A DNA stretch of 64,000 bases from assembly GCF_000230675.1 (NCBI RefSeq), contig NZ_AGIK01000004.1, positions 124,001 through 188,000 of the forward strand. The letters run 5' to 3'. This document shows positions 4,377 through 43,338 of the stretch, one piece after another (position 1 is the first letter of the stretch; each line of letters begins with the position of its first letter). Source of the DNA: Synechococcus sp. WH 8016 (GTDB lineage Bacteria; Cyanobacteriota; Cyanobacteriia; PCC-6307; Cyanobiaceae). A program made the position numbers and the translations under genes. The notes below the pieces were generated by a model. That model saw only the letters and a list, made by a program, of their open reading frames with translations, searched no databases and was not told where the DNA came from.

Positions 4377-4637
4377 TTAACGCGCCAGAGGAGCCAGCTT
4401 CGTAGGCGAAAGATGCGCGGAGGTGTAATCGATGCCCTCTGAATGGGCAGCAAAACAACGCTGAGCATCTTGAAGACGTTGCGCCTTCAGCTCTTTTTCT
4501 TTGATCAGGAGGAGGGTGTTCATGGGAACGACCGACAGCGCCTCAAACCCCGTTGCTTGTTTGAGATCGAACTGCGTCCCCTCATGGGGACCAACGTGAT
4601 CTGAATATAAGGGAAAAGGCAGGGTTAGCAAAGCCAT
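4377..4637 (-). CDS. Hypothetical 86-aa protein
   Basis: The frame is followed immediately by a good intrinsic terminator, which argues it is real. I chose the ATG at 4637 because GAAGG lies 8 bases upstream; the frame is open further (to a GTG at 4718), so a longer form is possible. The protein begins MALLTLPFPLYSDHVGPHEG and contains a lysine/glutamate-rich helix (LLIKEKELKAQRLQDAQRCF). No family is recognised. Confidence 0.55.
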   Translation of the reverse strand: MALLTLPFPLYSDHVGPHEGTQFDLKQATGFEALSVVPMNTLLLIKEKELKAQRLQDAQRCFAAHSEGIDYTSAHLSPTKLAPLAR

Positions 4638-15822: not shown

Positions 15823-15864
15823 ATTGAAGGGGGCATTCCACCCCCACGAGTCACTTGGGTGATA
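15823..15864. repeat. Left attachment repeat (att)
   Basis: These 42 bp are identical to 43297-43338. After one mismatch the match continues for four more bases (GGCT). Inside is an inverted repeat GGGGG-CATTCCA-CCCCC with a 7-base spacer (15829-15845), a typical tyrosine-recombinase core. This copy is the displaced ssrA 3' end. Confidence 0.9.
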
Positions 15865-15980: not shown

Positions 15981-16000
15981 TTGTCGGAAATTTGTCGGAA
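15981..16000 (+). repeat. Tandem TTGTCGGAA motif, left end
   Basis: Two copies of TTGTCGGAA (15981-15989 and 15992-16000) stand 11 bp apart, one helical turn, just before the integrase ATG. The same pair in the same orientation occurs inside the right end (43225-43245). They are candidate arm-type or excisionase binding sites. Confidence 0.6.
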
Positions 16001-16004
16001 AACG

Positions 16005-17273
16005 ATGCCGCGTCGCAACCTCAGCGAAATGCCCTTGTGGGAGATGAGGTTGGTCTCAATCACCAGCAAGTGGGCTGGGTGGAGCGTCACCAACGACAAA
16101 GGCTACGTCTGCATCCGCTATCGGGTAGCCAGCAAGCCAGCGCAGCAGGTGAATCTTCCCAAACTCCGTTATCGGGAGGAGGACGAAGAAGCGGCAATTA
16201 ACTGGACCAGACAGCTCTACAAGGTGTGGAGCGGAGCAGATGGAGAGCGAACTCTGAAGGATTGCTTGGCAGAGGTGAAAGGCAGCAGCGATGTTCAGAC
16301 GCAGGAGGAAGAGGTGACCTGGGCCAAGATCGCCTTAGCGATGAAGGAATCGAAGACCCAGTTCGGGGACAAGATCCAGCAACACACATGGAAATCGAAC
16401 TGGGAGCCGATTCTCTCGGAAGCGGTGCGGGTACTGGGGAGAAAGAACTCCCCGGCGGATGGCTACGAGTTACTGAAGGCAGTGATTAAAAAATGGCAGC
16501 ACGCACCATCTACCCAGAAGGAATGTGGCCGCTATTTGGCGCGGTGGATGGAGTTCGCGGTTCGGCGCTACAAGGTGCCGCGCTCATGGCTCATCACCCA
16601 AGCGGATCGCGATGAGCTGATCCCAAAGCGTATTAAGAGACGAAAGAAGGCCGTCCTTGAAGACAACGAAATCCTGGCGTTTATCGCTGTAGTGCAGAAG
16701 GAGAATCCGGCCTGGGCAAATCTGTTCCGGATGCTCACGCAATACGGATTACGACCGACCGAATTGCAACACCTTTCAGTGGTGAAAGACCCAGTAACTC
16801 AAGAGAAAACTTTCTGGTGCAGCTACGAAAAAATCGGCGGCGAAGAAGAGACGGATCCCAGATACCTGAGAGCCATGTATCTACGCAATGAGGACGACAA
16901 CCCAGTGCAGTGGCCACTGGTTGCGGAGTGGGAGGCGGGGACGTTGAAGTTGCCTGAGGGTCAGCTAAACGGAGCCGCGTGCAATCGACACGTTCACCGC
17001 AAGCGGAAGGGTGTGCCCACTGGACCAACGCAAAAAGAGTGGATTCGACTGGTGGAGAAGTACGCCGCAAAGCCCGCTCCCGAGTGGTTGAGGGTCTATT
17101 CCTTCAGAGACACATTCGGCGTCCGATGCAAACGAGAGGGGCTAGACAAAGGCGCAATTTGCGACGCAATGGGGCACTCTGAAGCCGTTCATGACCGCTC
17201 ATATCGAACGATCACGGATTCAATTGTCGCCAGAGCTTTCGAGTCGTCAGCAACATCGATCCCTTTGGAGTAA
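16005..17273 (+). CDS. int: Tyrosine recombinase/integrase (left end)
   Basis: The ATG at 16005 is preceded by GGAAAA; a TTG at 15981 would add 8 residues. The 422-aa protein has an N-terminal DNA-binding half and a C-terminal catalytic domain. The catalytic domain shows the first Arg in YGLRPTELQHL (about residue 248), a degenerate box II YSFRDTFGVRC in which Tyr replaces the usual His, and MGHSEAVHDRSYRTI with the GH box and the Tyr nucleophile near 399. It resembles integrases of picocyanobacterial islands. It lies about 140 bp inside the left att repeat and points inward. Confidence 0.85.
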   Translation: MPRRNLSEMPLWEMRLVSITSKWAGWSVTNDKGYVCIRYRVASKPAQQVNLPKLRYREEDEEAAINWTRQLYKVWSGADGERTLKDCLAEVKGSSDVQTQEEEVTWAKIALAMKESKTQFGDKIQQHTWKSNWEPILSEAVRVLGRKNSPADGYELLKAVIKKWQHAPSTQKECGRYLARWMEFAVRRYKVPRSWLITQADRDELIPKRIKRRKKAVLEDNEILAFIAVVQKENPAWANLFRMLTQYGLRPTELQHLSVVKDPVTQEKTFWCSYEKIGGEEETDPRYLRAMYLRNEDDNPVQWPLVAEWEAGTLKLPEGQLNGAACNRHVHRKRKGVPTGPTQKEWIRLVEKYAAKPAPEWLRVYSFRDTFGVRCKREGLDKGAICDAMGHSEAVHDRSYRTITDSIVARAFESSATSIPLE

Positions 17274-18063: not shown

Positions 18064-20061
18064 GTGACAACACAAAATAAGCGCCCCAGCTGGTGGGGCA
18101 AAGAGCTACGCCGTTTGGACGGGCTTCCTCTGCTCCCATGTGGAGCGGGTGATACCTACAAAGCCCCTCTTCTTAGCGGGTGGCAAAACAAGCGGTTCAG
18201 CCTGGATGAGGTGATGGAGTTCCCTGGGCTTCGATGCATTGGCATGAGGTGCGGACCAGAAGCCGATGGCTTACTGACCATTGACTTCGATGGTGAATCC
18301 GCCATCGATTACGCGGTTGAGAAGTTCAACTTCGACCTCTCCACTATCAATCTCAACAACTGGATAATCGTCAGGGACAGCGACGAAAACAGATTTAAGC
18401 TCGTCGTAAAGGTCCCGAAATCACAGTGGGATGGTCTCCCTGGGAAGACCGTCATCAAGACCGGGGAAAAAGAACAGATCGAGTTCTTCTGGTCCTCAGG
18501 TCAGGTAATTGTTGCTGGAGAGCATGTCTCCTCCGGGGATAAATACCACTGGGCAGACACAGGGCCACGAATGGTCAGGGAAATCCCCCTATCGCTATTT
18601 GCTCTGTGGAAATCGGGCTTTAGCCAGGGCCATGATCATTACTCCAGCCGAAGCGAAGGCAGTCGAACTCGACAAGAAGACGCGCATTGGATCGACTGCA
18701 TCCCCTGCCCGATTTGTGGCCGAACTGAACACGACTGTCGCCAAAGCCGCGACAAGAAAGTGATCCTCTGCCACTACGGCTCCCGCTGGAGTCCACCTTT
18801 GATGGCAAAGGGCGAGATGCTTGTTCGCGGCGGGATCACCTGGGCCTACTGCGGTGACAAAACTACCGCCGTCGGAGAGTCGGCGCTATTCCGCATCCAT
18901 GAGGAGCAGCCAAATCAAGCGTTACGCCAAAAGCGTGTTGAACCTGGCTTCGCTTTAAAGCTGATGGCTCAACAGCTCGGCGACGTTCCGAGGCTGAATG
19001 TAAGAAGCCGTGGCATCCACATCAATGGGGCCGAGGCCACAGCGACTCAAACAGAGAACCTCTACCTCCGTTTATCGATGCCTCCAAGCCCAAACAAGTG
19101 GAGTCAGAAGATTGCTCGCGATGCCTTCATCGAACTTGCTCACGAGCACGAGTTCGATCCTGTCGAGGTCTACCTAAACAGCCTCGAAGCAGACCCTCTC
19201 GCCGATGAGGACTGGCATCAGCTCAGCCGATTCCTGTTCGACTTCAGCGACCCCATCACCGATGCCTTCATGCCTCGGTTCCTAGTGGGCGCGGTAGCCA
19301 GAGTGATCAATCCAGGATGTCAACTCCGGCAGACACCGGTGCTCCTTGGTGGGCAGGGGATCGGCAAGACAGAGATGGGCAGGGCGCTGTTCGGACATGA
19401 GTTCTACGGCGACGGTTTAAGTCCGGCACTCGACATCGACGATGTGACCCGCCTCCAGTTCGTTTGGGGGATGGAGCTTGGCGAGCTGAACGGCATCACA
19501 CGACAAACACAGCAAGAAAAGCTCAAAGCCTTTCTAAGCAGGCGGGTAGATCTAGTTCGGCGTAAATATGCTCCCGGCACCGAGCCAATTCAGAGGCGCT
19601 CGACGTTCTGGGCGACCACGAACAAATCGCCACTGACGGACAACACCGGCAGCAGCCGATTCGTGATGATCCCCCTTGGGAGCGACAAGCTCCCGATCTC
19701 CAGGGTGAAAGCCGCAAGGGATGCGATTTGGGCCAGAGCCCTCCTCGAATACCGCAATGGCTACCAGCACTGGAGCACAGACGAGGAGATGGGCGAGATC
19801 CTTGCCAGAAACTCCGCCTACGACCTGGTGGATCCGTGGTTGGAGCCGCTGCGCGAATGGATTCTGATGCGTGGCACCACTGCCTACATCAAGCGGGCAG
19901 AGGTTTACGACTTTCTCGACATCCCTAAAGAGAGGCAGAACAACTACAACGCCCAACGCATCAGGGAGCTTATGACACATCTTGGGTGGGTCACGGACCG
20001 CCGCCGTATCGACAAGGACAAGTGGGTCCGTGCGTTCTGGAACCCTCGCCAGCCGGAATAG
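18064..20061 (+). CDS. Primase-VapE-type replicative helicase
   Basis: The 665-aa protein (GTG start) combines an N-terminal prim-pol-like region (TIDFDGESAIDY near residue 75 with the acidic pair), a zinc-finger-like CPICGRTEHDC ... CHYG (about 214-240), and a C-terminal VapE/D5-like ATPase. The ATPase shows Walker A GGQGIGKTE near 430, WGMELGELNGITRQTQQEKL near 470, and the KSPLTDNTGSSRF arginine-finger region. Such proteins start replication of phage satellites and related islands. It is the strongest sign that the left part of the element replicates autonomously. Confidence 0.85.
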   Translation: MTTQNKRPSWWGKELRRLDGLPLLPCGAGDTYKAPLLSGWQNKRFSLDEVMEFPGLRCIGMRCGPEADGLLTIDFDGESAIDYAVEKFNFDLSTINLNNWIIVRDSDENRFKLVVKVPKSQWDGLPGKTVIKTGEKEQIEFFWSSGQVIVAGEHVSSGDKYHWADTGPRMVREIPLSLFALWKSGFSQGHDHYSSRSEGSRTRQEDAHWIDCIPCPICGRTEHDCRQSRDKKVILCHYGSRWSPPLMAKGEMLVRGGITWAYCGDKTTAVGESALFRIHEEQPNQALRQKRVEPGFALKLMAQQLGDVPRLNVRSRGIHINGAEATATQTENLYLRLSMPPSPNKWSQKIARDAFIELAHEHEFDPVEVYLNSLEADPLADEDWHQLSRFLFDFSDPITDAFMPRFLVGAVARVINPGCQLRQTPVLLGGQGIGKTEMGRALFGHEFYGDGLSPALDIDDVTRLQFVWGMELGELNGITRQTQQEKLKAFLSRRVDLVRRKYAPGTEPIQRRSTFWATTNKSPLTDNTGSSRFVMIPLGSDKLPISRVKAARDAIWARALLEYRNGYQHWSTDEEMGEILARNSAYDLVDPWLEPLREWILMRGTTAYIKRAEVYDFLDIPKERQNNYNAQRIRELMTHLGWVTDRRRIDKDKWVRAFWNPRQPE

Positions 20062-22385: not shown

Positions 22386-25300
22386 CTAGGAAAGCAGGTC
22401 TCTAATATAAGTATCAAGCAGGTTCAACTCTCGCTGTGGGTCACGAAACCAGTCTGTTGACCAAACACGATAAACCTTCCATCCAAGCCCCTCTAAGACT
22501 TGTTGACGCAGGCGATCTCGCGATCTCGCACTAAAAGAAGAATGGTATGACGCCCCGTCACATTCAATTGCCAATAGGTAACGCGAAGGATCTCTTGGAT
22601 CACGTATTGCCATATCGATTCGGTAAGAGGCAACACCAACTTGGAGATCTACCTGATGACCGAGAGAAACCAAAGAGTTTCGTACAGAATCTTCAAAAGG
22701 ACTTTCGACTTCACCTCCAGATCGCTGCAAGTCATCAGCAATTGAACCTGATAAAGCGAAGTCAAGATAGCCACGTAGAGCACGCACACCCCTACTTGAG
22801 TTCTCAGTGATTGAGATGTCTGATGGCATCAAGGAAGAGACTACTATGACCTTGTGCTTAGCACGAGTGAAGAGTACATTTAGACGCCTCCAACCTGAAT
22901 CTTTATTAATTGGACCAAAGTTTTGCATGACACGACCGTCAGAGCCAGGTCCATAGACAGTTGAGATAATGACAACATCACGCTCATCTCCTTGAACATT
23001 CTCAAGGTTCTTTACGACTAATTCGTCAAGGGTGGATTGATGGGTAGAAGAAAACTTCTCAAGCAAAGGGTCATTCTGGATCTCCCTCTCCAATGCCATC
23101 TTGAGTTCCGAAGTTTGAGCCTGATTCATTGTGGCTACCAAGATTGTCCTATCAGGCTCTGCAGAGATCTGACGCTTAAGCACCTGGATCACCTGCTCTA
23201 CTTCCGACAAATTGATACCACCGGAATACAATGGGTTCTCAACTTGAACAAGATTTACTTGGGAGTCAACTTTATTTGAGGCGAAGATTGTCAGGGAGTT
23301 TTCGTAAAAGTAGTAATTCGAGAAGCTTATTAATGATTGATGACGTGAACGGTAGTGCCAACCGAGCGAGCAACCGTTAGCGGCTAGAACCTTATCTGCA
23401 AGCTCAAGGATAGATTCATTATCTTCAATCTCGACATCGACTTCATCTTCATCTGAGACGAGATCTCTTTTCTGAAAGAAGTTGGTTGGTGGAAGCTGAT
23501 TTCTGTCGCCGACAATAATGACTTGCTTAGCTCGTGCAATTAATGAAAATGCTTGCTCAGGCTTCATCTGTGATGCCTCATCAATGACGAGTACATCAAA
23601 AAGAGCAGGACGCTTAGGAAGCAGCTCTGCTGCAGAAGCAGGCGACATCATCCAACATGGCTTGAGACGAGAAAGCGACTCAAAGGCTTGCTTGACTAGC
23701 AACCTAGTTGGCAAATGACGGCGCTGCTTTCTGATCTCGTGTTGAATTAATGGCCCCTCAGTAAAAAGCCGTGGGCTTCCAGTAGATGTCCCTGGTAACA
23801 GAGCATTCTTTGTTCCAGCACACAAGGAAGCTGCTAGAGCCTTGGAAGAGTCAAGGATAAAGTCTTCATCAACCTCTCTAAATAGTTCACGTAGAGAATT
23901 GACTGAGGCACCAGATAAGGTACTTATTTGCGCTTCTAATTGCAACTCACGAGATTGCATAGAAGCAATTGCTACTGTCAGGATACGCCTTGGAGGCAAA
24001 CCTGACTCAACAGATAGCTTGACAACCTCTGCGACCCCCTTAGAAATTCCCTTCTGAGATAGAGAGGAGACAACTCGAAGGTATTTGAGAATTTCAGGCT
24101 GAAAAGATACTGCCTTATCAGTAAGGCTAAGCAGGGTAGAAAAGGCGTCAGCAACAGTAACATCAGATAGAAAATTTTCTACAGAGTTAGCAGAGAGAAA
24201 ATCCGCTATGGGAGCTGTAGATGAAATAGTATTAAGGGAATCTTTCCTAGAGAAGCATGCAAGATTTTTTCGAAGTGCCGAGCAAGTAGCAGAGACCCCA
24301 TACGACGAGAGTGACTCGCTAATAGCAGGTGGTAATGATGAGAATTTTATATCATTAAAAGTCGAGAGTAGTGACTCAATATTGGAGCCACTCAGTGAGA
24401 ATGAAAGATCCTTATCAGAGAAAATATTATTGCTGATTAGGAATTGATAAAGAGAATCTACCGCATCCTTAAAAGCCGAAAGATCGCGAGCTAGAAGTGA
24501 TAGATCATATGGATCTAATGCAGAAATTGAATCTCTTATTCCCTCCCCAAGAAGACTTATCTTTGAACCTATAGATGCTAAGCTGGCACCAGAAACCTTT
24601 TCTGCTTCCTGAAGAGTCCTTGCCGATAGGCATATCAGCTCCGGGACAGAGATAGATTCAGAGATCGTGGCAAGTAGTTCCAGTGCAGATGCTGCTAGCT
24701 TCGGATCATCTAAAGAGCCATAAAATTGAACCAGGTCACATTCATGATCATCGGCGGAATCTAATTGGCTTGAAAGGTCGCGTAGCTTCTCAAGTGGAAG
24801 AACCTCATTGATCAAAGCTTCTTCCTCGGAACTACGCCTTATATATTCAGAACACTTTGAATATATTTTGGCAAGTTGAGGCAGCGCCGGTCTTTTTGTT
24901 TGACTATTACTAACAAGCTTCCAAAGTAATTTAGCAGAACGAACTTTGGCATCAACAATACACCCCAAGGGACCAGTATCTCGGATTGATTGCACACTAT
25001 CCCGAAAGCGAAGAGCATCAACTTCACCAAGAGAACTAACTTCCACGCCAAGTCCAGTCAGCTCAGTAGCAAGATTTGAGTTTCGCTTAATTTCTAAAAG
25101 TGCGGCGTAGCAACTTGAGACATGTTGAGAAGACTCAGAATGAGCAATAACCTGTGCTGCGATTTGGATAGGTATCGCAGAAGCAGACCTAGAGAAATCT
25201 ATACAAGCAGCAGTATCTCCATAACAGAGCTTTTCTGTGATTGCTCGATCCATACGAGAAAGAAGTCGTCCAGTAGCCCGACAGAAGTCAAAAGAATCCC

Positions 25301-27287
25301 TTAGCAAATCCTGAAAATGCTGTACCGAGTCAATATTTTTCTCATCCTTAACTAGATTATCAATTGCTATCAAGCAGTCTTGGAGCTGAGAAAACCGTTT
25401 TGATTCTCCAAGAAGTGGATATGTCCAGGAAGGTATATGGTCCTGGACACTTTCTCGTGTCTTGATGAGACGTAAAGCCTCTGAAAGATTAGTAGCAAAG
25501 CTCTCATTAATAGGAACGTCAGGTGCAACGCCGAAGGATTCGGACAGCTTCTCAACAGTAGAGAGTTGATCAAGGAGAAACTGATAGTATTCGTCCGTTA
25601 ATTCAGAGATGGTAAGTCTCTCTTGATTGGACTCCTGAAGGAGCAATTCATAGTCAACCCTGAGATTGTGAAGAGCATCTAAAAGACTTGCTAGCTCACT
25701 TTCAGTAACAGGAAGTCCTACAATTGTTGAAATGTTTTGTAGACCACAATCAGAAAGAAGCTGTGAGGTTTGCGAAAGCTGATCCAACTCATCAGTAGCT
25801 CTCTCAAGAAGAGCAGGTGTTATAACATCAACATTAATTTCTTGAGCCCTAGACAAGGCGAAGAGTTCGGATTCATCAGCTACCGCTAGCTTATTCGATA
25901 CCAACTTCCAAATTGAATCATGAATAGAGGTATCCCCAAATGAAGTCGATAGTGTTTTATTAAGAAGTCCTGAGTGATCGTTAAGTTCGGTCCTAAGAGT
26001 CTTGAGTTGCTCTAGAGATTGAGAGTAGTTCTTTTGAGAGTACTTTTCAACCTGATAATCGATTCGCCTCTTGATCTCTTGATGAAGCTTAAGCTTGGAA
26101 CAACCAGCATTATGCATTTCAAGACAAAACTCTTCCAGCCCTTTCTCGCTAAGCCTATTCTTAACTACCTCCAGTGCAGCAAGCTTATCTGCAGCAAATA
26201 AAACTCTTTTACCACTATCTAAAAGACAGGCAATCATATTGGTAATGGTCTGACTTTTCCCAGTTCCTGGTGGACCTTGAACAACGAGGTTATAGCCCTG
26301 AATAGACTTTTTGATGACTGCATATTGTGTGCTGTCAGCATCAGAAATAAGCTTTGGAACTTCGAACGCAGTCAAAGACTGCTCATCTTCATCCTGTGAA
26401 GACGAAAGCTCGCCCATCGGCTCAATGCTGGCCGATGGAGTTCCCTGGATAAAATCAGATAAAAAACTATTTGAGCTAAGCGGATCTTCATCCCAACACG
26501 AAAAGTCAAGATCATTATATATAGAGATATTGGTAAAACTAAAAAGTCCTAGAGTAGCCCACTGTTTAAGATGCCAAGGCTGTCCTGAGTGATTCTCATT
26601 ACGTTCAGACAAAAGGACCTTAAGTTCATCAAAAAATTCCGATAACTGAGGCTGACCTTCTTCATCAACAGATAACGCTGGTAGCTGAAGCCCCTCATCC
26701 TCACTTAGCTTTCTCCAAAGAGAGATGTTGATCGAAGGATCATCCTCTCCTCCATCAACAAAATATATATATCCATTTGTCGACTTCTCCCTTGAAATCT
26801 GGACAGGTAAGAGAACTAAAGGAGAGAAACGCTCTTCAGTCCCTATCGAGCCTCTACTTTCATACCAATGAAGAAAACCAATAGCAATATTTAGAGTATT
26901 AATTCCTCTTTCTTGAAGACTGAGGCGGTTTTCAGATCTGAGCTTCTCGCAGCTAAGGCTAAATACAGGTTCTTCTTCAATAACCTGAATGAAATCATCG
27001 GAATGCTGAGACGAGAGAGTAGATATATCTGTCAAAAGTGTAAGATCTACCTCATAGGCATTTTCCGGTGGCTTTGCTATAAGCTGAAGCCGTGATTGCT
27101 GATCTAACTTTTTAAGAATTATTTCTGGCACCTCATCAGCTATCCGAAGATAGTTTTGCTTTTTTGATCTTGAAGTAGGGCCTGAGTGCTTAAAATTTAT
27201 AAGCTTATTTCGACCACCAAGATCAAGCAGCAGCTTACGTTGTGCCTCTAATTTGGCGAGAAGTTCAGTTGAATTTTGACTAGACAC
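22386..27287 (-). CDS. DUF4011-type SF1 helicase with C-terminal Vsr-like nuclease (putative defence protein)
   Basis: The 1,633-aa protein (GTG start) opens with a DUF4011-like region (LLLDLGGRNKLINFKHSGPT, residues 16-35). Walker A QGPPGTGKSQT is near 337, then come a long helical insertion, VLVIDEASQMKP near 1,230, VGDRNQLPPTNFF, WHYRSRHQSLI, NVQGDERDVVII and LNVLFTRAKHKVIVV (helicase motifs II-VI). The C-terminal 100 residues carry the nuclease signature RIDMAIRDP ... LLAIECDGASYHSS ... DRLRQQVLEGLGWKVYRVWS (MTES_1575/Vsr-like). Proteins of this architecture occur in anti-phage islands. It appears to act alone, as no partner gene is adjacent. Confidence 0.82.
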   Translation of the reverse strand: MSSQNSTELLAKLEAQRKLLLDLGGRNKLINFKHSGPTSRSKKQNYLRIADEVPEIILKKLDQQSRLQLIAKPPENAYEVDLTLLTDISTLSSQHSDDFIQVIEEEPVFSLSCEKLRSENRLSLQERGINTLNIAIGFLHWYESRGSIGTEERFSPLVLLPVQISREKSTNGYIYFVDGGEDDPSINISLWRKLSEDEGLQLPALSVDEEGQPQLSEFFDELKVLLSERNENHSGQPWHLKQWATLGLFSFTNISIYNDLDFSCWDEDPLSSNSFLSDFIQGTPSASIEPMGELSSSQDEDEQSLTAFEVPKLISDADSTQYAVIKKSIQGYNLVVQGPPGTGKSQTITNMIACLLDSGKRVLFAADKLAALEVVKNRLSEKGLEEFCLEMHNAGCSKLKLHQEIKRRIDYQVEKYSQKNYSQSLEQLKTLRTELNDHSGLLNKTLSTSFGDTSIHDSIWKLVSNKLAVADESELFALSRAQEINVDVITPALLERATDELDQLSQTSQLLSDCGLQNISTIVGLPVTESELASLLDALHNLRVDYELLLQESNQERLTISELTDEYYQFLLDQLSTVEKLSESFGVAPDVPINESFATNLSEALRLIKTRESVQDHIPSWTYPLLGESKRFSQLQDCLIAIDNLVKDEKNIDSVQHFQDLLRDSFDFCRATGRLLSRMDRAITEKLCYGDTAACIDFSRSASAIPIQIAAQVIAHSESSQHVSSCYAALLEIKRNSNLATELTGLGVEVSSLGEVDALRFRDSVQSIRDTGPLGCIVDAKVRSAKLLWKLVSNSQTKRPALPQLAKIYSKCSEYIRRSSEEEALINEVLPLEKLRDLSSQLDSADDHECDLVQFYGSLDDPKLAASALELLATISESISVPELICLSARTLQEAEKVSGASLASIGSKISLLGEGIRDSISALDPYDLSLLARDLSAFKDAVDSLYQFLISNNIFSDKDLSFSLSGSNIESLLSTFNDIKFSSLPPAISESLSSYGVSATCSALRKNLACFSRKDSLNTISSTAPIADFLSANSVENFLSDVTVADAFSTLLSLTDKAVSFQPEILKYLRVVSSLSQKGISKGVAEVVKLSVESGLPPRRILTVAIASMQSRELQLEAQISTLSGASVNSLRELFREVDEDFILDSSKALAASLCAGTKNALLPGTSTGSPRLFTEGPLIQHEIRKQRRHLPTRLLVKQAFESLSRLKPCWMMSPASAAELLPKRPALFDVLVIDEASQMKPEQAFSLIARAKQVIIVGDRNQLPPTNFFQKRDLVSDEDEVDVEIEDNESILELADKVLAANGCSLGWHYRSRHQSLISFSNYYFYENSLTIFASNKVDSQVNLVQVENPLYSGGINLSEVEQVIQVLKRQISAEPDRTILVATMNQAQTSELKMALEREIQNDPLLEKFSSTHQSTLDELVVKNLENVQGDERDVVIISTVYGPGSDGRVMQNFGPINKDSGWRRLNVLFTRAKHKVIVVSSLMPSDISITENSSRGVRALRGYLDFALSGSIADDLQRSGGEVESPFEDSVRNSLVSLGHQVDLQVGVASYRIDMAIRDPRDPSRYLLAIECDGASYHSSFSARSRDRLRQQVLEGLGWKVYRVWSTDWFRDPQRELNLLDTYIRDLLS

Positions 27288-28479: not shown

Positions 28480-28752
28480 TCAGCAAGGCGGCGGCGTGCA
28501 GCGTTCCCAACCGATCTTCTGCAGGTTGATCCACATCTCGATGCCTAGGTGTCTGAGCATTCGCTGCTGCCTGACGGGTTTCCCAAGCCGTGCTGACAAG
28601 CGGTAGTAGCTCACCAGAACGAACTGAGCATGTTGCGTTGCTGCATCGGGCTTGATCTGGAGGAGCATCCCTTCTTGCCTGTTCAGCAGCCAGCCCTCAC
28701 CATCGAGCCTCTCTTTGTATAGGGCGTAATCAGGCTGCTGCTGCCACATCAC
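28480..28752 (-). CDS. DUF1651-like protein
   Basis: The 90-aa product, MMWQQQPDYALYKERLDGEG and so on, contains GEGWLLNRQEG, HAQFVLVSYYRLS, RMLRHLGIEMW and the ending KIGWERCTPP. These match the DUF1651 pattern also seen at 2587-2859. The frame is open a few codons upstream (SSPQQTAV before the Met), a leader shared with a fragment at 41716-41793. The function is unknown. Confidence 0.75.
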   Translation of the reverse strand: MMWQQQPDYALYKERLDGEGWLLNRQEGMLLQIKPDAATQHAQFVLVSYYRLSARLGKPVRQQRMLRHLGIEMWINLQKIGWERCTPPPC

Positions 28753-32132: not shown

Positions 32133-35100
32133 ATGCGCCTGATCACTCCTAGCCAGCTGTCGCTGTTTTCGATCAGCCCGGTGATCGGGGCGTGGTGGCA
32201 GGAGCTGGAAGCTCGCAAACTATTTGAAGGCAACAAACCAGCGGTAAGCGAGCTTGACCAGCAGCTGTTTGCCGATGGCTTGCGTCATGAGGAGGTGTTG
32301 CTCGAGAAGCTGGAGAAGGAGGGGCATCGCATCGCTCGTTTGCCTGGCAAGCAAACGGAAGCTGATTACACCGCCACGAAGCAAGCGATGGCTGAGGGGT
32401 ATGACTTCATCCATCAAGCCTCGCTTTGTGATGGTGGAATGCGTGGCAGCGCCGATCTGCTCAGGAAGATTGAGGAGCCGTCAGCGCTGGGTGAGTGGAG
32501 CTACATCCCTATTGAATGCAAGCTCGCCAGCAAACCAAAAACTACTTTCCTGGTTCAGGCTTCTGCCTACTGCGAACTGCTAATCCCGCTTTTAGGTAGT
32601 CGGCCGGATCAGTTCGATCTGTATCTGGGTGGCGGCAGGTTTCAGCGATACAACACTGATCAGTTCTGGGCCTGGTATCAGCATCTACGCCAACGCTTCT
32701 CAGCTTTTCAGGAACGTTTTGACCCCAGCCAAGCGCCTGAGGATGCACCTGGTGACCACAGCAACTGGACAGCGTTTATTGAGGAACGGCTAGAGCAGCA
32801 GCGCGATTTAATCCTGGTGGCGGGGATGCGCCAAAGCCATCGCCAGAAGCTGCGCGCAAAAGGCATCACCACGATCGAGGAGTTGGCTGCTCTACCCGCC
32901 GGGTGCAGCGTGAAAGGACTTTCTGGTGAGGCGTTGCATGAGTTGCGCCAACAAGCTGAACTGCAGCTCACTCCAGTAGGTGCTGATGGCCGTCCGGCTT
33001 ATCGACTGCGACCTGCCATCACTGGCAAAGGACTGAGTGCCTTGCCTGCGGCTGATCCCGGCGACATCTGGTTTGACATGGAGGGGATCCAAGATTCGGT
33101 GGCTGGCACCAAGCTCGAATATCTGTTCGGAGCTTGTTATCGCGATACGCCTGATACCCATCCAGTGTTCAAGGCTTGGTGGGCCCACACCCCAGAGGAA
33201 GAAAAAGCCGCCTTTGCTGCTTGGGTGGATTGGGTAGAAGACCGGCGCAGGAGCCATCCCGGCCTGCACGTCTATCACTACGCGGCCTATGAAAAAACAG
33301 CGATGCGACGGCTGGCGCAGCAACACGCCACTCGGGAACTAGAGATCGACAACTGGCTGCGCAACGGTTTGCTGGTGGATCTGTTGCCGGTGGTGACTAG
33401 TTCGATCGTGCTGGGTGAGCCCAGCTACTCGATCAAGAAGGTGGAGCACCTTTATATGGAGCAGCGTGAGGCAGGGGTCACTAACGCCGGAGATTCGGTG
33501 GTTGCCTATCTGCACTGGCAGCTCTCTGACGAACCGGAGGTTCCTGGCGAGGCTCCTACCTACAGCTCAAAGCTGAAAGCGATTGAGGACTACAACCGGG
33601 AGGATTGCGAAAGCACTGCGTTTTTGCACGACTGGCTGCGCCAGCGCAAAGCGGAACTGGGTCTGCCGGAATACCCACTGCAGCAGTTAAGTGAAGACGA
33701 GCAGGAGCTACGGGAGCCGCAACCGCTGGAGCTGCTTAGCCAACAACTCCTCGATGAGATTCCTGATCCACTTACTGATGACAATGCGATCGGACCGCTT
33801 GGCTTGAGCTGGAAAGCCCAAAAGCTTCTCGCTCAATTGCTGCCCTTCCACCACCGGGAGGCAAAGGTGGGCTGGTGGGCCTATTTCGATCGCAGGAGCA
33901 AAGCTGAACTTAGCCCCGACGAGCTGATCGACGACGGAGAAGCAATCGCAGAAGTTAAGTGGGTAGGGATGGAAGAGCGGCCCAGCGCCAGGACAGGCGC
34001 AGACATTCATCACTTCCGTTTTGACCCCAGCCAGCCACTGAAACTGCATGCCGGTAATGGCGACGGACGGCTCACCGTGGAGCTACCAGCCACCCGCCTG
34101 AAGCTGGATGTCGATGCCCTCGATAGCAAGCAGGGCAGCGTGAGCTTGAAGTTGCCTTGGAGGAAACGCGATCAACGCCTCGCCAATGGAGAAGGAGAGG
34201 GCATCCCTAAGGAGCCAACCTCAATCATCAGAGTCCCGGCGGACATCAGTAAACCGTTGCGAGAACGGCTGGAAGAGCAGGCGATGGAGTGGGTCCACGA
34301 GAACAAACCAATTCCCAAAGCAATCGTGCAGCTGCTTGAACGGAAGCCGCTTAAAGAACTCAATGAACTGAACGCAGTGATTGCTGGAGATCCCAATGCT
34401 GTAGCGGGTGCACTGGCGAGTTACCTGCAGGAGCATTCCGGCATCAGCCTGGCGCTGCAGGGTCCACCGGGCACCGGCAAAACCACTGTCACTGGTCAGG
34501 TGATTGCCCAACTGGTTGCAGTAGGCCAGCGGGTAGCGATCAGCTCGAATAGCCATCCGGCGATCAACAACCTGCTCAGGAAAGCTAAAAGCACATGCAC
34601 TGCAGCAGGCGCATCGAGCGAGGTGGTGAAGTGCAGCAATGCCAAGGAGGATCCACTGGCGGCTGAAGGCTTTTCTGTAGTGAGGCCAGACCAGCTCACA
34701 GAAGAGATGGCAGTAGTAGGTGGCACCACCTGGATGTTCTGCAAAGAAGAACTTGATGATCAGTTCGATCTGTTGGTGGTGGACGAGGCGGGACAGATGT
34801 CGCTCGCCAATCTTCTGGTGATGGCTCGCTGCGCTCGCTCGATCCTGCTGGTGGGCGATCAACAGCAACTAGCTCAGCCATCTCAAGCCGATCATCCTGG
34901 CGACTCAGGTCAAAGCTGCCTTGAGTATTGGATGGAAGGCGCATCTGTGGTGCCGTCTGATCGCGGCGTGTTTCTAGGCACTAGCTGGCGTATGGAACCC
35001 AGCCTCACGGCAATGGTGAGTGAGCTGTTTTACGAGGGCAGGCTCAAGGCCAATCCTGGAAATTGCGCAAACCGCATCGAATGGGCCAAACCATGCCAAA

Positions 35101-35606
35101 GCAAAGCGGGATTACTGCTACCTGAGCAGGGCCTTGTTTTTGAAGCAGTGGACCACAGCGGTAATAGCGTCTGCAGCGAGGAAGAAATCAATCGCATCGA
35201 AGAGCTGGTGGATGCCCTGCTGGGGGGCCACTACCAACACGCCAAAGCAGGAGAACTAGATGAAGGCCCGCTGACTGCCAACCAGATCTTGGTGACAGCG
35301 CCATACAACGTGCAGGTGAACCGGCTGAAGCAACGGCTCAATGGTCGTGCTCGGGTTGGCACGGTGGATAAGTTCCAGGGTCAGGAGGCTCCGGTTGCCA
35401 TTCATTCGCTTACGGCAAGCAGCGGTGATGAGGCACCCAGAGGGCTGAGTTTTTTATTGGAGCCAAATCGATTGAACGTGGCAATCAGTAGGGCTCAGTG
35501 CCTGTCGATTGTGGTGGGCTCCTCCAACCTGGCCAGTGGCATCGCAAACACGGTGGCGGAAGCCGAGCAGATAAATCGGTTATGCAGGCTTCAATCGCAC
35601 CAATGA
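32133..35606 (+). CDS. TM0106-type RecB-like nuclease / RNase H-like / SF1 helicase fusion
   Basis: The 1,157-aa protein begins with a RecB-like PD-(D/E)XK module: MRLITPSQLSLFSISPVIGA at the N-terminus, GSADLLRKI near residue 107 and YIPIECKLAS near 127, giving the D ... E-x-K set. A 3'-5' exonuclease-like RNase H fold follows (DIWFDMEGIQDSV near 311, HVYHYAAYEKTA). A helicase with Walker A QGPPGTGKTT near 776, LLVVDEAGQM near 883, VGDQQQLAQPS, TVDKFQGQEAPVA and RLNVAISRAQC completes it. It looks like a DNA-processing or defence enzyme; cellular repair is the alternative. Confidence 0.82.
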   Translation: MRLITPSQLSLFSISPVIGAWWQELEARKLFEGNKPAVSELDQQLFADGLRHEEVLLEKLEKEGHRIARLPGKQTEADYTATKQAMAEGYDFIHQASLCDGGMRGSADLLRKIEEPSALGEWSYIPIECKLASKPKTTFLVQASAYCELLIPLLGSRPDQFDLYLGGGRFQRYNTDQFWAWYQHLRQRFSAFQERFDPSQAPEDAPGDHSNWTAFIEERLEQQRDLILVAGMRQSHRQKLRAKGITTIEELAALPAGCSVKGLSGEALHELRQQAELQLTPVGADGRPAYRLRPAITGKGLSALPAADPGDIWFDMEGIQDSVAGTKLEYLFGACYRDTPDTHPVFKAWWAHTPEEEKAAFAAWVDWVEDRRRSHPGLHVYHYAAYEKTAMRRLAQQHATRELEIDNWLRNGLLVDLLPVVTSSIVLGEPSYSIKKVEHLYMEQREAGVTNAGDSVVAYLHWQLSDEPEVPGEAPTYSSKLKAIEDYNREDCESTAFLHDWLRQRKAELGLPEYPLQQLSEDEQELREPQPLELLSQQLLDEIPDPLTDDNAIGPLGLSWKAQKLLAQLLPFHHREAKVGWWAYFDRRSKAELSPDELIDDGEAIAEVKWVGMEERPSARTGADIHHFRFDPSQPLKLHAGNGDGRLTVELPATRLKLDVDALDSKQGSVSLKLPWRKRDQRLANGEGEGIPKEPTSIIRVPADISKPLRERLEEQAMEWVHENKPIPKAIVQLLERKPLKELNELNAVIAGDPNAVAGALASYLQEHSGISLALQGPPGTGKTTVTGQVIAQLVAVGQRVAISSNSHPAINNLLRKAKSTCTAAGASSEVVKCSNAKEDPLAAEGFSVVRPDQLTEEMAVVGGTTWMFCKEELDDQFDLLVVDEAGQMSLANLLVMARCARSILLVGDQQQLAQPSQADHPGDSGQSCLEYWMEGASVVPSDRGVFLGTSWRMEPSLTAMVSELFYEGRLKANPGNCANRIEWAKPCQSKAGLLLPEQGLVFEAVDHSGNSVCSEEEINRIEELVDALLGGHYQHAKAGELDEGPLTANQILVTAPYNVQVNRLKQRLNGRARVGTVDKFQGQEAPVAIHSLTASSGDEAPRGLSFLLEPNRLNVAISRAQCLSIVVGSSNLASGIANTVAEAEQINRLCRLQSHQ

Positions 35607-39489: not shown

Positions 39490-40929
39490 TTACTCTCCAG
39501 ATTGAATTTCTCTGACGACGCTATCTATACCATCACCAATCGTTGTTTCACTGTTCTGACCCGCAAGCTCAGCAAATCGTCTCCCCTGCGGTAACAAGCG
39601 ACTCTGCGCAGAGCCAACTGCCTCGTTATAGCTCTTGTTGAGTCTTGCCAAATTGCTTCCTACAGCGTTGAACTTGTCGACAAACATCAAGAACCGCTTA
39701 TGCAGCTCAACAGCATTGTTCTGGATCTCCTCAATATTTGCCGCTATTTCACCTTGCTGAATTGTCATCGATAAGCCCTTGAGAATCGCGAGGAGACTTG
39801 TTGGGAAAGTCAGGATGATCTTCTTGCTAAACGCGTACTCCAGAAGGTCAGGATCGCGTTCCAATGCCATTGATAGGGCTCCTTCAACAGGAATGAACAG
39901 AACGACTCCGTCAACGACCTGTCCCAAGGAACTCAGCTTTCCTGCGTAATCCTTCTTACTAAGGAGATCAATATGACTACGGACTTTTTTGAGGTGCTCC
40001 TTTAAGGCTGCCTCACGCTGTGTTTCGTCTGTGGCCTGCAAGGCATCCAGATAACTCTCGATCGGTGCCTTGGAATCCACGATGAGCCTGCGCGAACCAG
40101 GAATAGTGATCACGCAGTCCGGGCGATAGGCACCTTCATCTGTATCGACATGCACTTGCTCGTCGAAATCGCAGTAGCTGATCAGACCAACGAACTCCAA
40201 GATTCTGTGAAGGTTCACCTCTCCCCATCGGCCCTTCACGTTGGGGGAACGCAAAGCAGATGTGAGCTGCTGAGCTGCGCCTTTAACGTCTTCGCTGCGT
40301 TGACGCAGATCCATGGTGGTCTGGGCCAATGCCCCAAGCTTCTCTACTGACTCCTTCTGTAAGACCTGCATCTGCTGCCGCAGCTGCTCCATTTGTTTGG
40401 CAAAAGGCTCACTAACGCTTTCTTTGGTGGATTTGAGCAAGGCGTCCCTAGAGCCATCAAGCATCTGACCACTAAGGGAGCGAAATTGGGTCAGTAGATC
40501 AGCCCGAGCTTGCTCCAGAAATTGAGTTTGAGTCTCTTGCGAACGGAGCTTCTCAGCTATCTCTGCCGCCTGCTTGCTGAGGGTCTCTTTCTCTGACCTG
40601 ATCTGCTCAAGGACGTTAGTTGTCGTGGACTGCGAAGACTTCAGCTCATCTCGCTCGCGGCTGACTGCCTCAAGCTGTGTACGGCTGACAGCAGCAACCT
40701 CTTTGGCTTCTTGCAGCTGCAACTGCTGTTGTTTGAACTCCGCGTTCTGTGCCTCAAGCTGATCCCCAAACTTGCCCAACCCCTCATTGGCTTGCCCTAG
40801 GCGCTCTTCTAGACGCCCTAAGTCGCCAGTGCCACCTGCGGGCCTAGAACGCCCAAACATCTTGCTGAGGATGAAACCAACGATCACGCCGGTTAAGACA
40901 CCCGTGATGAAGAGGAGAACTGCTGGCAA
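39490..40929 (-). CDS. rmuC: DNA recombination protein RmuC
   Basis: The 479-aa protein (TTG start) has one N-terminal membrane helix, a coiled coil to about residue 215 and the RmuC core: SPNVKGRWGEVNLHRILEF near 235, YRPDCVITIPGSRRLIVDSK near 270 (PD ... DSK, a PD-(D/E)XK-like site), VVLFIPVEGALSMALE, and ANIEEIQNNAVELHKRF. RmuC limits recombination at inverted repeats; its nuclease activity is predicted. Finding it inside a mobile element, coupled to a TPR protein, is unusual. Confidence 0.85.
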   Translation of the reverse strand: MPAVLLFITGVLTGVIVGFILSKMFGRSRPAGGTGDLGRLEERLGQANEGLGKFGDQLEAQNAEFKQQQLQLQEAKEVAAVSRTQLEAVSRERDELKSSQSTTTNVLEQIRSEKETLSKQAAEIAEKLRSQETQTQFLEQARADLLTQFRSLSGQMLDGSRDALLKSTKESVSEPFAKQMEQLRQQMQVLQKESVEKLGALAQTTMDLRQRSEDVKGAAQQLTSALRSPNVKGRWGEVNLHRILEFVGLISYCDFDEQVHVDTDEGAYRPDCVITIPGSRRLIVDSKAPIESYLDALQATDETQREAALKEHLKKVRSHIDLLSKKDYAGKLSSLGQVVDGVVLFIPVEGALSMALERDPDLLEYAFSKKIILTFPTSLLAILKGLSMTIQQGEIAANIEEIQNNAVELHKRFLMFVDKFNAVGSNLARLNKSYNEAVGSAQSRLLPQGRRFAELAGQNSETTIGDGIDSVVREIQSGE

Positions 40930-41715: not shown

Positions 41716-41793
41716 TCAGATACATTCCGGAGCAAAATGATCAGGCTGTTGCTGCCACATCAGTGCAGTTTGGCGAAATGGCCCATTGGGTTG
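41716..41793 (-). pseudogene. DUF1651 leader fragment
   Basis: The last 25 codons before a TGA read QPNGPFRQTALMWQQQPDHF and APECI. QTALMWQQQPD matches QTAVMWQQQPD just before the DUF1651 protein at 28480-28752, and the DNA is similar over about 34 bases, but the remainder of the protein is missing. It looks like a truncated copy. Confidence 0.5.
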
Positions 41794-41827: not shown

Positions 41828-41854
41828 AAAAAAAGAAGGCGACTAAGCCTTCTT
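41828..41854 (-). terminator. Rho-independent terminator
   Basis: AAGAAGGC / GCCTTCTT with a 6-base loop is followed on the minus strand by a run of T. It is the 3' end of the Yfr1-like transcript candidate; no protein gene on this strand ends nearby. Confidence 0.88.
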
Positions 41855-41900
41855 CGGGGGGTGTGAGGAGCCAAACCTTGTGAGGAGTTGGCCAATCCCA
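41828..41900 (-). ncRNA. Yfr1-like small RNA candidate
   Basis: In minus-strand order: a stem GCCAA/TTGGC (41888-41892 with 41870-41874) has ACTCCTCACAA across its 5' arm and loop. It is followed by an unpaired GCTCCTCACAC and a C run (41855-41870), then a terminator hairpin AAGAAGGC/GCCTTCTT (41833-41854) with a T run. Stem-loop, unpaired CTCCTCACAC and terminator hairpin is the known layout of the cyanobacterial regulatory RNA Yfr1, which pairs with mRNA leaders. The canonical Yfr1 lies elsewhere in the genomes I recall, so this would be an additional, element-borne version. Confidence 0.6.
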
Positions 41901-41980
41901 TGATGATGAGGCGCCTGCAGAACAGTCAATCAACTGATACGGAGGGACTTGCTCAGTCGTATTTCTGAGGCATTATTCAC

Positions 41981-42070
41981 GTGTGAGGAGGGCTTCTTCA
42001 CGGAGTGGAAACTAGGCAACACGCCCAACGAGAAGCCGAGAAACCCTGCCTTTGGCGGGGTTTTCTTTTA
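41981..42070 (+). ncRNA. Plus-strand RNA candidate carrying an anti-Yfr1 sequence
   Basis: GTGTGAGGAG (41981-41990), the exact complement of the Yfr1 motif, is followed by a GGCTTCT/AGAAGCC stem (41991-41997 with 42031-42037) enclosing GGAAAC, and then by a strong terminator. Yfr2-family RNAs also contain a GGAAAC motif and can pair with Yfr1, so this could be a Yfr2-like or decoy RNA. There is no protein-like frame on this strand. The 5' end is a guess. Confidence 0.45.
42041..42070 (+). terminator. Rho-independent terminator
   Basis: AAACCCTGCC / GGCGGGGTTT (42041-42050 and 42054-42063) with a 3-base loop is followed by a T-rich tract. It terminates plus-strand transcription although no protein gene precedes it on that strand. 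Confidence 0.9.
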
Positions 42071-42242: not shown

Positions 42243-43328
42243 TTATCCGAGTCTCAATGAACTGCTGTCTTTTGGGTTTGCCGCAACGTAATGAGCAGTC
42301 GTTCCAGATGAACTGTGTCCGAGTGTTGCTTGAAGCGTGAAGACATCGACACCTCTCCTGATTGCATGTGTCGCGTGGGTATGGCGGCACCGGTGCGGAT
42401 AAAGCCGTACTCCGGCTTCGCTTCCCCATTTCGCCATGCGAGCAGCAACTGCCTGACGGGTCAATGGGCCATCTCTCCTATCGGAGGGGAACAGCCAGCC
42501 CTCAGGCTCGCCGCGGCCCAACGACTCGAATAACTCCAGCGTTGCGGAGCTGACCCGAATAGCGCGGGGCTTATTGCCCTTGCCCAAGAGCTGAATGTTC
42601 CCGCCCTCCTCCAAACGCTCAATGTCCTGCCAACAGAGACGGCACAATTCAGAGACGCGACACCCCAACAAATACGACCCACGCACCATCACGTAGTCAC
42701 GCGCCGCGATAGCTGAACCCTTTAACTTCTTGGCACTAATTACATCAAGAACTGATGTCAGATCAGACTCAGATAGCGGCTTGGCCAGCTTTGGTGCCGA
42801 CATTCCTGTTCTTCGGGGGATTGGGTTCCGCGGCACTCCTGACACAGCTGATCTCGTAGGTTCAGCGGCCCAGCGATAGAGCGCGCTGACGGCACTGATC
42901 CGTCGATTAAAAGAACGCGGCATCAGCTCGCCTGCATCAACTTGTTCCCGCAGCTGGGACACCCAGTCCTGAACAAGCGCAGGGTCCAACTCCCTCAGGT
43001 GCAGGTGGGGATGGTGCTGATCCCTCCAGCCTGTGAAATGCCTCAGCTCTCGCCTATAACCATCTTTGGTTTCCTGAGATCCAGTGCGACTGCACTGATC
43101 AAGGAATCGTTTTAGGAGGAGATTGTCCCCCCAAAGGACAGCGCCAGCATGAGCGGCATCAAAGAGCCGACTGACGTATGCCAAAGCCTCCGCCTTATCC
43201 AGCCCCAAGAACACCGCAGGAAGCTTGTCGGAAGATTTGTCGGAAACCGCTTTACTGGCTTCTGGCGTAACTACCAGATCATCTGCAGCAGTAACAATTG
43301 AAGGGGGCATTCCACCCCCACGAGTCAC
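42243..43328 (-). CDS. Tyrosine recombinase (right end)
   Basis: The 361-aa protein has an N-terminal SAM-like core-binding domain (about residues 60-170) and a complete catalytic set: Arg in LLGCRVSELCRLCW (near 223), Lys in LGKGNKPRAIRV (near 248), HRCRHTHATH (near 313), LGHSS (near 335) and TTAHYVA with the Tyr nucleophile. Both candidate starts, GTG at 43328 and ATG at 43310, lie inside the att repeat, so its 5' end is formed from ssrA sequence. It resembles XerC/D-type and integron-like recombinases more than the left-end integrase does. Confidence 0.85.
   Translation of the reverse strand: MTRGGGMPPSIVTAADDLVVTPEASKAVSDKSSDKLPAVFLGLDKAEALAYVSRLFDAAHAGAVLWGDNLLLKRFLDQCSRTGSQETKDGYRRELRHFTGWRDQHHPHLHLRELDPALVQDWVSQLREQVDAGELMPRSFNRRISAVSALYRWAAEPTRSAVSGVPRNPIPRRTGMSAPKLAKPLSESDLTSVLDVISAKKLKGSAIAARDYVMVRGSYLLGCRVSELCRLCWQDIERLEEGGNIQLLGKGNKPRAIRVSSATLELFESLGRGEPEGWLFPSDRRDGPLTRQAVAARMAKWGSEAGVRLYPHRCRHTHATHAIRRGVDVFTLQATLGHSSSGTTAHYVAANPKDSSSLRLG
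43225..43245 (+). repeat. Tandem TTGTCGGAA motif, right end
   Basis: TTGTCGGAA occurs at 43225-43233 and 43237-43245, 12 bp apart, in the same orientation as the pair at the left end. It lies inside the recombinase coding region 52 bp from the att repeat. Confidence 0.6.
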
Positions 43329-43338
43329 TTGGGTGATA
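43297..43338. repeat. Right attachment repeat (att), within ssrA
   Basis: Exact copy of 15823-15864. The inverted repeat GGGGG-CATTCCA-CCCCC occupies 43303-43319. This copy is contiguous with the intact tmRNA gene and contains the recombinase start codons. Confidence 0.9.

Follow-up and report, generated by a model that had tools for sequence, protein, structure and literature searches.

The feature at 41828-41893 on the minus strand of the window (the whole 64,000-nucleotide stretch of Synechococcus sp. WH 8016 DNA analysed here) probably encodes a trans-acting sRNA of the Yfr10 type and lies divergent from the gene of its own sponge, Yfr2, the two forming a module carried as cargo of a tmRNA island. 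The regulatory network of Yfr1, Yfr10 and Yfr2 is already known; the new elements here are two seeds in one RNA, divergence from the Yfr2 sponge, multiple copies and mobility. Coordinates of the features are collected in Table 1.

Table 1. Features of the sRNA/Yfr2 module and of the tmRNA island in the window
Feature	Position	Strand	Evidence
Yfr10-type sRNA (two-seed), predicted 66 nt	41828..41893	-	Covariance model, fold, paralogs and orthologs
5' hairpin of sRNA, GGCCAACTCCTCACAAGGTTTGGC	41870..41893	-	Fold and homolog comparison
Seed 1, CUCCUCACA, hairpin loop and 5' side	41879..41887	-	Sequence
Seed 2, CUCCUCACAC, single-stranded, hairpin/terminator linker	41861..41870	-	Fold, homologs
Intrinsic terminator of sRNA	41828..41855	-	9-bp stem 41855-41832, T run after
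Predicted sRNA promoter, TTGACT (41929-41924), 18-nt spacer, CATCAT (41905-41900)	41900..41929	-	Consensus scan
Motif copy GCTCCTCACAC	41861-41871	-	Sequence
Motif copy ACTCCTCACAA	41878-41888	-	Sequence
Motif copy CCTCCTCACAC	41981-41991	-	Complement of Yfr2 5' anti-seed on plus strand
Palindromic CAGTCAATCAACTG in shared spacer, possible regulator site	41923..41936		Conserved in most of 26 aligned divergent pairs
Predicted Yfr2 promoter, TTGCTC (41949-41954), 16-nt spacer, CATTAT (41971-41976)	41949..41976	+	Conserved alignment columns
Yfr2-family sRNA (Rfam RF01701, Cyano-1), 5' anti-seed GTGTGAGGAG at 41981-41990	41977..42041	+	54.3 bits, gathering 41
Terminator of Yfr2	42040..42064	+	11-bp stem, CTTTT tail
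Tyrosine recombinase (integrase)	42243..43328	-	PF00589 2e-28, PF02899
att repeat, inside and just past 3' end of tmRNA coding part	43297..43338	-	Repeat comparison
Far-end att repeat	15823..15864	-	47 bp at 98%, 42-bp identical core

Anatomy of the sRNA

The minus strand from 41893 to 41828 (GGCCAACTCCTCACAAGGTTTGGCTCCTCACACCCCCCGAAGAAGGCTTAGTCGCCTTCTTTTTTT) folds as a hairpin, a single-stranded seed and a terminator, with z-scores of -2.4 to -3.2 against dinucleotide shuffles; folding thus bears out the layout given in a preliminary description of this DNA. Covariance model R1 scores the window sRNA at 94.7 bits, the window copy being itself among the R1 training sequences. In the fold, the CACA of seed 1 is unpaired within the hairpin and its UCCU is mostly paired, and the second motif lies outside the hairpin. 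The predicted promoter matches 9 of 12 consensus positions and is weak by itself, so the start of the sRNA, which this promoter-like site would place at the foot of the hairpin (~41893), is given as an approximate position that we infer. A separate terminator-like site at 42103-42086 belongs to the integrase gene, which is encoded on the minus strand too; the sRNA terminator therefore serves no protein gene, as had been proposed. Occurrence of the motif exceeds chance: exact TCCTCACACCCCC is found at five sites in the 2.69-Mb genome, namely the canonical Yfr1 and the four copies of the window sRNA, and a reversed-pattern control gave one match only, with one mismatch permitted.

Relationship to Yfr1 and Yfr10

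The window sRNA shares with Yfr1 (RF01116) a similar size and the arrangement of a stem-loop, single-stranded ACUCCUCACAC and a terminator stem-loop, the window having GCUCCUCACAC, which differs in the first base. The Rfam Yfr1 model (gathering threshold 38 bits) gave no match at 41828-41900, even at E<=5, and the C1 paralogs of the window sRNA reach ~13-15 bits with this model. A covariance search for the usual chromosomal gene placed the canonical Yfr1 of the genome at C1:96564-96620 (69.2 bits), with one canonical match per genome in all 31 genomes of the genus. Membership of the window sRNA in the Rfam Yfr1 family was rejected on these grounds, and with the canonical Yfr1 located elsewhere the window sRNA is an extra RNA, differing from Yfr1 also in its additional hairpin seed and its neighbours. 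The earlier characterization as Yfr1-like consequently stands for layout and seed and fails for family membership.

Judged by its motif, neighbourhood and fold, the window sRNA appears to belong with the Yfr10-type RNAs, distinct from Yfr1. The Yfr1 motif is carried by an RNA other than Yfr1, one copy of it (seed 1) lies in a loop atop a stem, and the gene adjoins a Yfr2-family gene, divergently and at 83 bp. In Yfr1 the motif separates two stem loops; in Yfr10, which was detected in Synechococcus WH8102, it occupies a loop atop a stem (PMC6778093), and in Prochlorococcus MED4 the Yfr10, Yfr12 and Yfr18 genes adjoin Yfr2, Yfr4 and Yfr5 in tandem order (PMC2518516). With this family (Yfr10, Yfr12 and Yfr18 of MED4, Yfr10 of WH8102) the window sRNA shares the motif in a non-Yfr1 RNA, its placement in a hairpin (seed 1), the Yfr2-family neighbour and complementarity to the Yfr2 5' end. 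It differs in being divergent from Yfr2, whereas the MED4 order is tandem, in having a second motif copy at the Yfr1 position, and in occurring as several near-identical copies per genome, one of them on an ssrA island.

The divergent Yfr2 gene and predicted pairing with the sRNA

The plus-strand gene at 41977-42041 carries the 5' GUGUGAGGAG and the GGAAAC loop motif and is a member of Cyano-1 (RF01701), which we take to be the Yfr2 family given these matching features; the window sRNA is its partner and not a member. This gene was missed in the preliminary description, which gave the positions of three motif copies correctly and read the third from the complement of the Yfr2 5' anti-seed. The plus-strand Cyano-1 match there rules out CCTCCTCACAC at 41981-41991 as a further sRNA motif. 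The two genes are separated by a spacer of ~83 bp. The Yfr2 promoter was not returned by the consensus scan and was placed from alignment columns. Many solo Yfr2 genes, L124, L147 and L160 among them, have ~30-50 bp before their start a palindrome, CTGGCACAGTGCCAG, that is possibly a GntR (CGRE1) site; the window copy of it is degenerate.

In the window, seed 2 and the Yfr2 5' end (41981-41990) form a perfect 10-nt complement. Published descriptions give a Yfr2 5' motif that is nearly complementary. Perfect seed complements of 8-12 nt (median ~9.5 nt) are found in most sRNA/Yfr2 pairs; row G015_C21 of this test is to be disregarded, since the sequence matched there was the complement of the sRNA itself and not Yfr2. 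The cofold gain for the window pair is modest (-12.4 kcal/mol). RNAduplex energies, equalled by 378 of 1000 shuffles, are uninformative because the terminators cross-hybridise, and replacement of UCCU did not consistently weaken predicted pairing across loci, the Yfr2 segments used having been ill-chosen, with the anti-seed cut off. Genome-wide, TGTGAGGAG has 23 sites vs 14 for the reversed-pattern control, an excess approximately accounted for by four Yfr2 genes and seven complements of sRNA seeds. Perfect 9-nt target sites in mRNAs of the genome showed no excess over the control, and none was convincing at a start codon.

Yfr2 is known to bind both Yfr1 and Yfr10, which protect it from RNase E, and the repression that Yfr1 exerts on a GFP reporter in E. 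coli was relieved by Yfr2 (PMC6778093). A mechanism of mutual titration, transferred from this published work, is proposed for the window pair. The sRNA and Yfr2 would be transcribed from back-to-back promoters in the 83-bp spacer, where they may be co-regulated, and would pair with one another in trans, seed 2 contributing 10 bp and seed 1 contributing 9 bp. As a sponge, Yfr2 would prevent Yfr1 and Yfr10-like RNAs from reaching their mRNA targets; the extra sRNA would conversely tie up Yfr2. The island copy may affect the Yfr1 targets of the host. Titration of the Yfr1 network in this manner is plausible by analogy; the window sRNA may be expressed as a short RNA, and its binding by Yfr2 is predicted from the complementarity.

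Copies and linkage across the genus

The window genome contains four copies of the sRNA and five Yfr2 genes. Three of the four sRNA copies diverge from a Yfr2 gene 80-87 bp away, and the fourth lies just past the third, near ruvA. The sRNA is not confined to the mobile element, since three paralogs lie on the chromosome of the same genome near ruvA; up to six copies occur in relatives, and the site in the ruvA neighbourhood is common to the clade. Copies in G024 and G027 match the window sRNA exactly throughout its 66 nt, and the same sRNA is present in named Synechococcus records.

With a covariance model built on the four copies, 24 of the 31 genomes of the genus gave matches, and linkage was counted between these matches and 111 Yfr2 matches. 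In 31 cases sRNA and Yfr2 diverge across a gap of 79-87 bp; the other sRNA matches comprise five that are divergent at 322-455 bp, five weak ones that are convergent, and 21 that have no Yfr2 within 600 bp. At 75 of the 111 Yfr2 loci no model-detected sRNA partner was present within 100 bp. When the remaining loci were scanned, five more proved to carry the motif in divergent position at -115 to -118, as in the window, and some others had apparent decayed sRNA remnants upstream. The sRNA/Yfr2 pair is on this distribution a repeated chromosomal module of the marine Synechococcus genus. When the family was searched more widely with a refined model, most weak matches outside the genus were canonical Yfr1 or single-seed RNAs, and a few lay near Yfr2 (divergent in L090, tandem in L093 and L095). 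Yfr1-motif RNAs with other stem types were seen in G003, G018, G005, G009, G019 and G029 (L029-L032, L040, L041, L073); nearly all have two seeds, and five are convergent with Yfr2.

Conservation of the two seeds and of structure

The stems of the sRNA differ between subfamilies (GGCCAA/GGTCAA, AGTTGG, GGATCAA, GGAAAGC, GGTTGG). Counted over distinct sequences, UCCUCAC lies inside the first hairpin in 15/28 of the GGCCAA/GGTCAA subfamily, 9/9 of AGTTGG, 3/3 of GGATCAA and 3/4 of GGAAAGC. The 15/28 subfamily is that of the window. Of 45 distinct homologs, 43 retain an intact seed 2, and the hairpin is almost always followed by UCCUCACAC. Seed 1 is less well conserved in the window subfamily, which indicates that the principal seed there is seed 2. 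Both seeds, one in a hairpin loop as in Yfr10 and one in a linker as in Yfr1, are combined in one RNA in four subfamilies.

In the alignment of 45 sequences, 4 of the 5 pairs in the outer stem of the 5' hairpin are altered on both strands of the stem, with 97% of cells paired; the terminator stem has 98% of cells paired, and overall 95.5% of cells are paired and 113 are altered on both sides vs 27 in shuffles. These figures are biased because the alignment was fitted to the model; slid and shuffled controls lay far below the observed pairing. In a model-free count, a perfect 5-bp hairpin abutting the seed was found in 35 of the 45 distinct sequences vs 1.5 expected from shuffles. Taken across relatives, these patterns show a seed-adjacent hairpin kept via compensatory changes.

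The tmRNA island

The location of the sRNA on a mobile element, claimed at the outset, is confirmed: 42-bp repeats of the tmRNA end, in the same orientation, bound 27.5 kb, and an integrase stands at the tmRNA-side border with the sRNA/Yfr2 pair beside it. With the end of its target RNA directly repeated at the two borders and an integrase at one of them, the element has the make-up of an ssrA-integrated mobile island. Within the genus the integrase is patchy (11 of 31 genomes), and tmRNA is near universal. A repeat at 28729/41740 was considered as an element border and rejected, as it represents the starts of two DUF1651 genes: a truncated start at 41740-41772, comprising the first codons, and a full copy 13 kb off at 28480-28752.

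Several other genes were observed on the island. An integrase-like gene (15981-17273) is present at the other end, followed by a VapE-like plus Prim-Pol protein (18064-20061); together with the att repeats and the integrase, these give the island a satellite or tycheposon-like appearance. A 1633-aa DUF4011/helicase/MTES_1575 nuclease protein (22386-27287, minus strand), with strong PADLOC matches to PDC-S37 and Hhe, is a candidate phage-defence gene. A 1157-aa protein with RNase_H_2 and AAA_12 helicase domains (32133-35606, plus strand) resembles MkoA (PADLOC), and an RmuC-family protein (39490-40929, minus strand) matches the PADLOC model of a reverse-transcriptase-associated RmuC. The tycheposon-like tRNA/tmRNA islands of picocyanobacteria that bear a primase-helicase likewise have a tyrosine recombinase by the target RNA gene, an att repeat, a VapE-like and Prim-Pol replication protein and defence-type cargo; the window island differs in bearing the sRNA/sponge pair. 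Elsewhere in the window, a glutamine-II riboswitch was detected at 4542-4599 on the minus strand (Rfam RF01704, 44 bits).

In G021, a DUF1651 gene, the sRNA, Yfr2 and the integrase follow in the same order as in the window, at 83% identity, and a Yfr2 and/or sRNA copy is located 1.3-22.5 kb downstream of tmRNA in G000, G001, G006, G021, G024 and G027. This order and this proximity in six genomes suggest that tmRNA islands recurrently carry the module. In G011 the integrase and tmRNA are present at 92%, and no sRNA/Yfr2 pair was found near them. The module resides both on tmRNA islands and at clade-shared chromosomal sites. No copy of the sRNA was found in the viral contigs and phage records searched.

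Alternative explanations

The position of the sRNA beside the integrase inside the att-flanked 27.5-kb island, together with the repeated gene order in G021 and the copies on the same side of tmRNA in six genomes, would also fit an island-borne decoy or hijacker, in which the sRNA (with Yfr2) rewires the host Yfr1 network for the benefit of the island, e.g., during phage attack or excision. This is unlikely, as the module also occurs away from islands, for instance near ruvA at a location common to the clade, the pair is absent near the close relative of the integrase and tmRNA in G011, and the phage and viral sequences searched hold no copy. That the island carries a seed RNA together with its sponge further argues against a one-way decoy.

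It is very unlikely that the pair is a relic, i.e., a duplicated, unexpressed copy surviving by chance on the island: decayed remnants do seem to lie upstream of several other Yfr2 genes, the neighbouring DUF1651 is truncated and the promoter is weak, but the window copy is intact in all its parts and shares its 66-nt identity with the copies in G024 and G027. That the structure is the 5' leader or attenuator of a downstream DUF1651 gene is extremely improbable. In the G021, G001 and G006 loci such a gene does lie downstream of the sRNA and in the same orientation, and its truncated start is left behind in the window; however, the downstream gene is cut short in the window and different or absent at most other copies, the constant neighbour is Yfr2, on the other side, a strong terminator ends the RNA, and the invariant part is the seed. 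The reading as a Yfr10-type sRNA divergent from its Yfr2 sponge has points against it as well, namely the weakness of the sigma-70-like sites, the modest cofold gains, the inconsistent effect of UCCU replacement on predicted pairing, the intactness of seed 1 in only about half of the window subfamily, the many Yfr2 loci that have no model-detected partner within 100 bp, and the tandem order in MED4.

Significance of the module

Few cyanobacterial sRNAs are as conserved as Yfr1 and Yfr2, and the copy number of Yfr2 is very variable between strains. The divergent pair with its fixed spacing gives a concrete reason to consider how much seed RNA and sponge are made and in what ratio, as set by one shared promoter region, and tmRNA islands offer a route for gaining copies of the pair. 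It is possible, if doubtful, that a two-seed sRNA and its own sponge, transcribed back to back, form a mobile unit of fixed spacing and multiple copies by which tmRNA islands change the dose and ratio of Yfr1 and Yfr2 in their hosts. The two-seed design, on unrelated stems in four subfamilies, also raises a question of valency: whether one sRNA may hold two Yfr2 molecules or two mRNAs.
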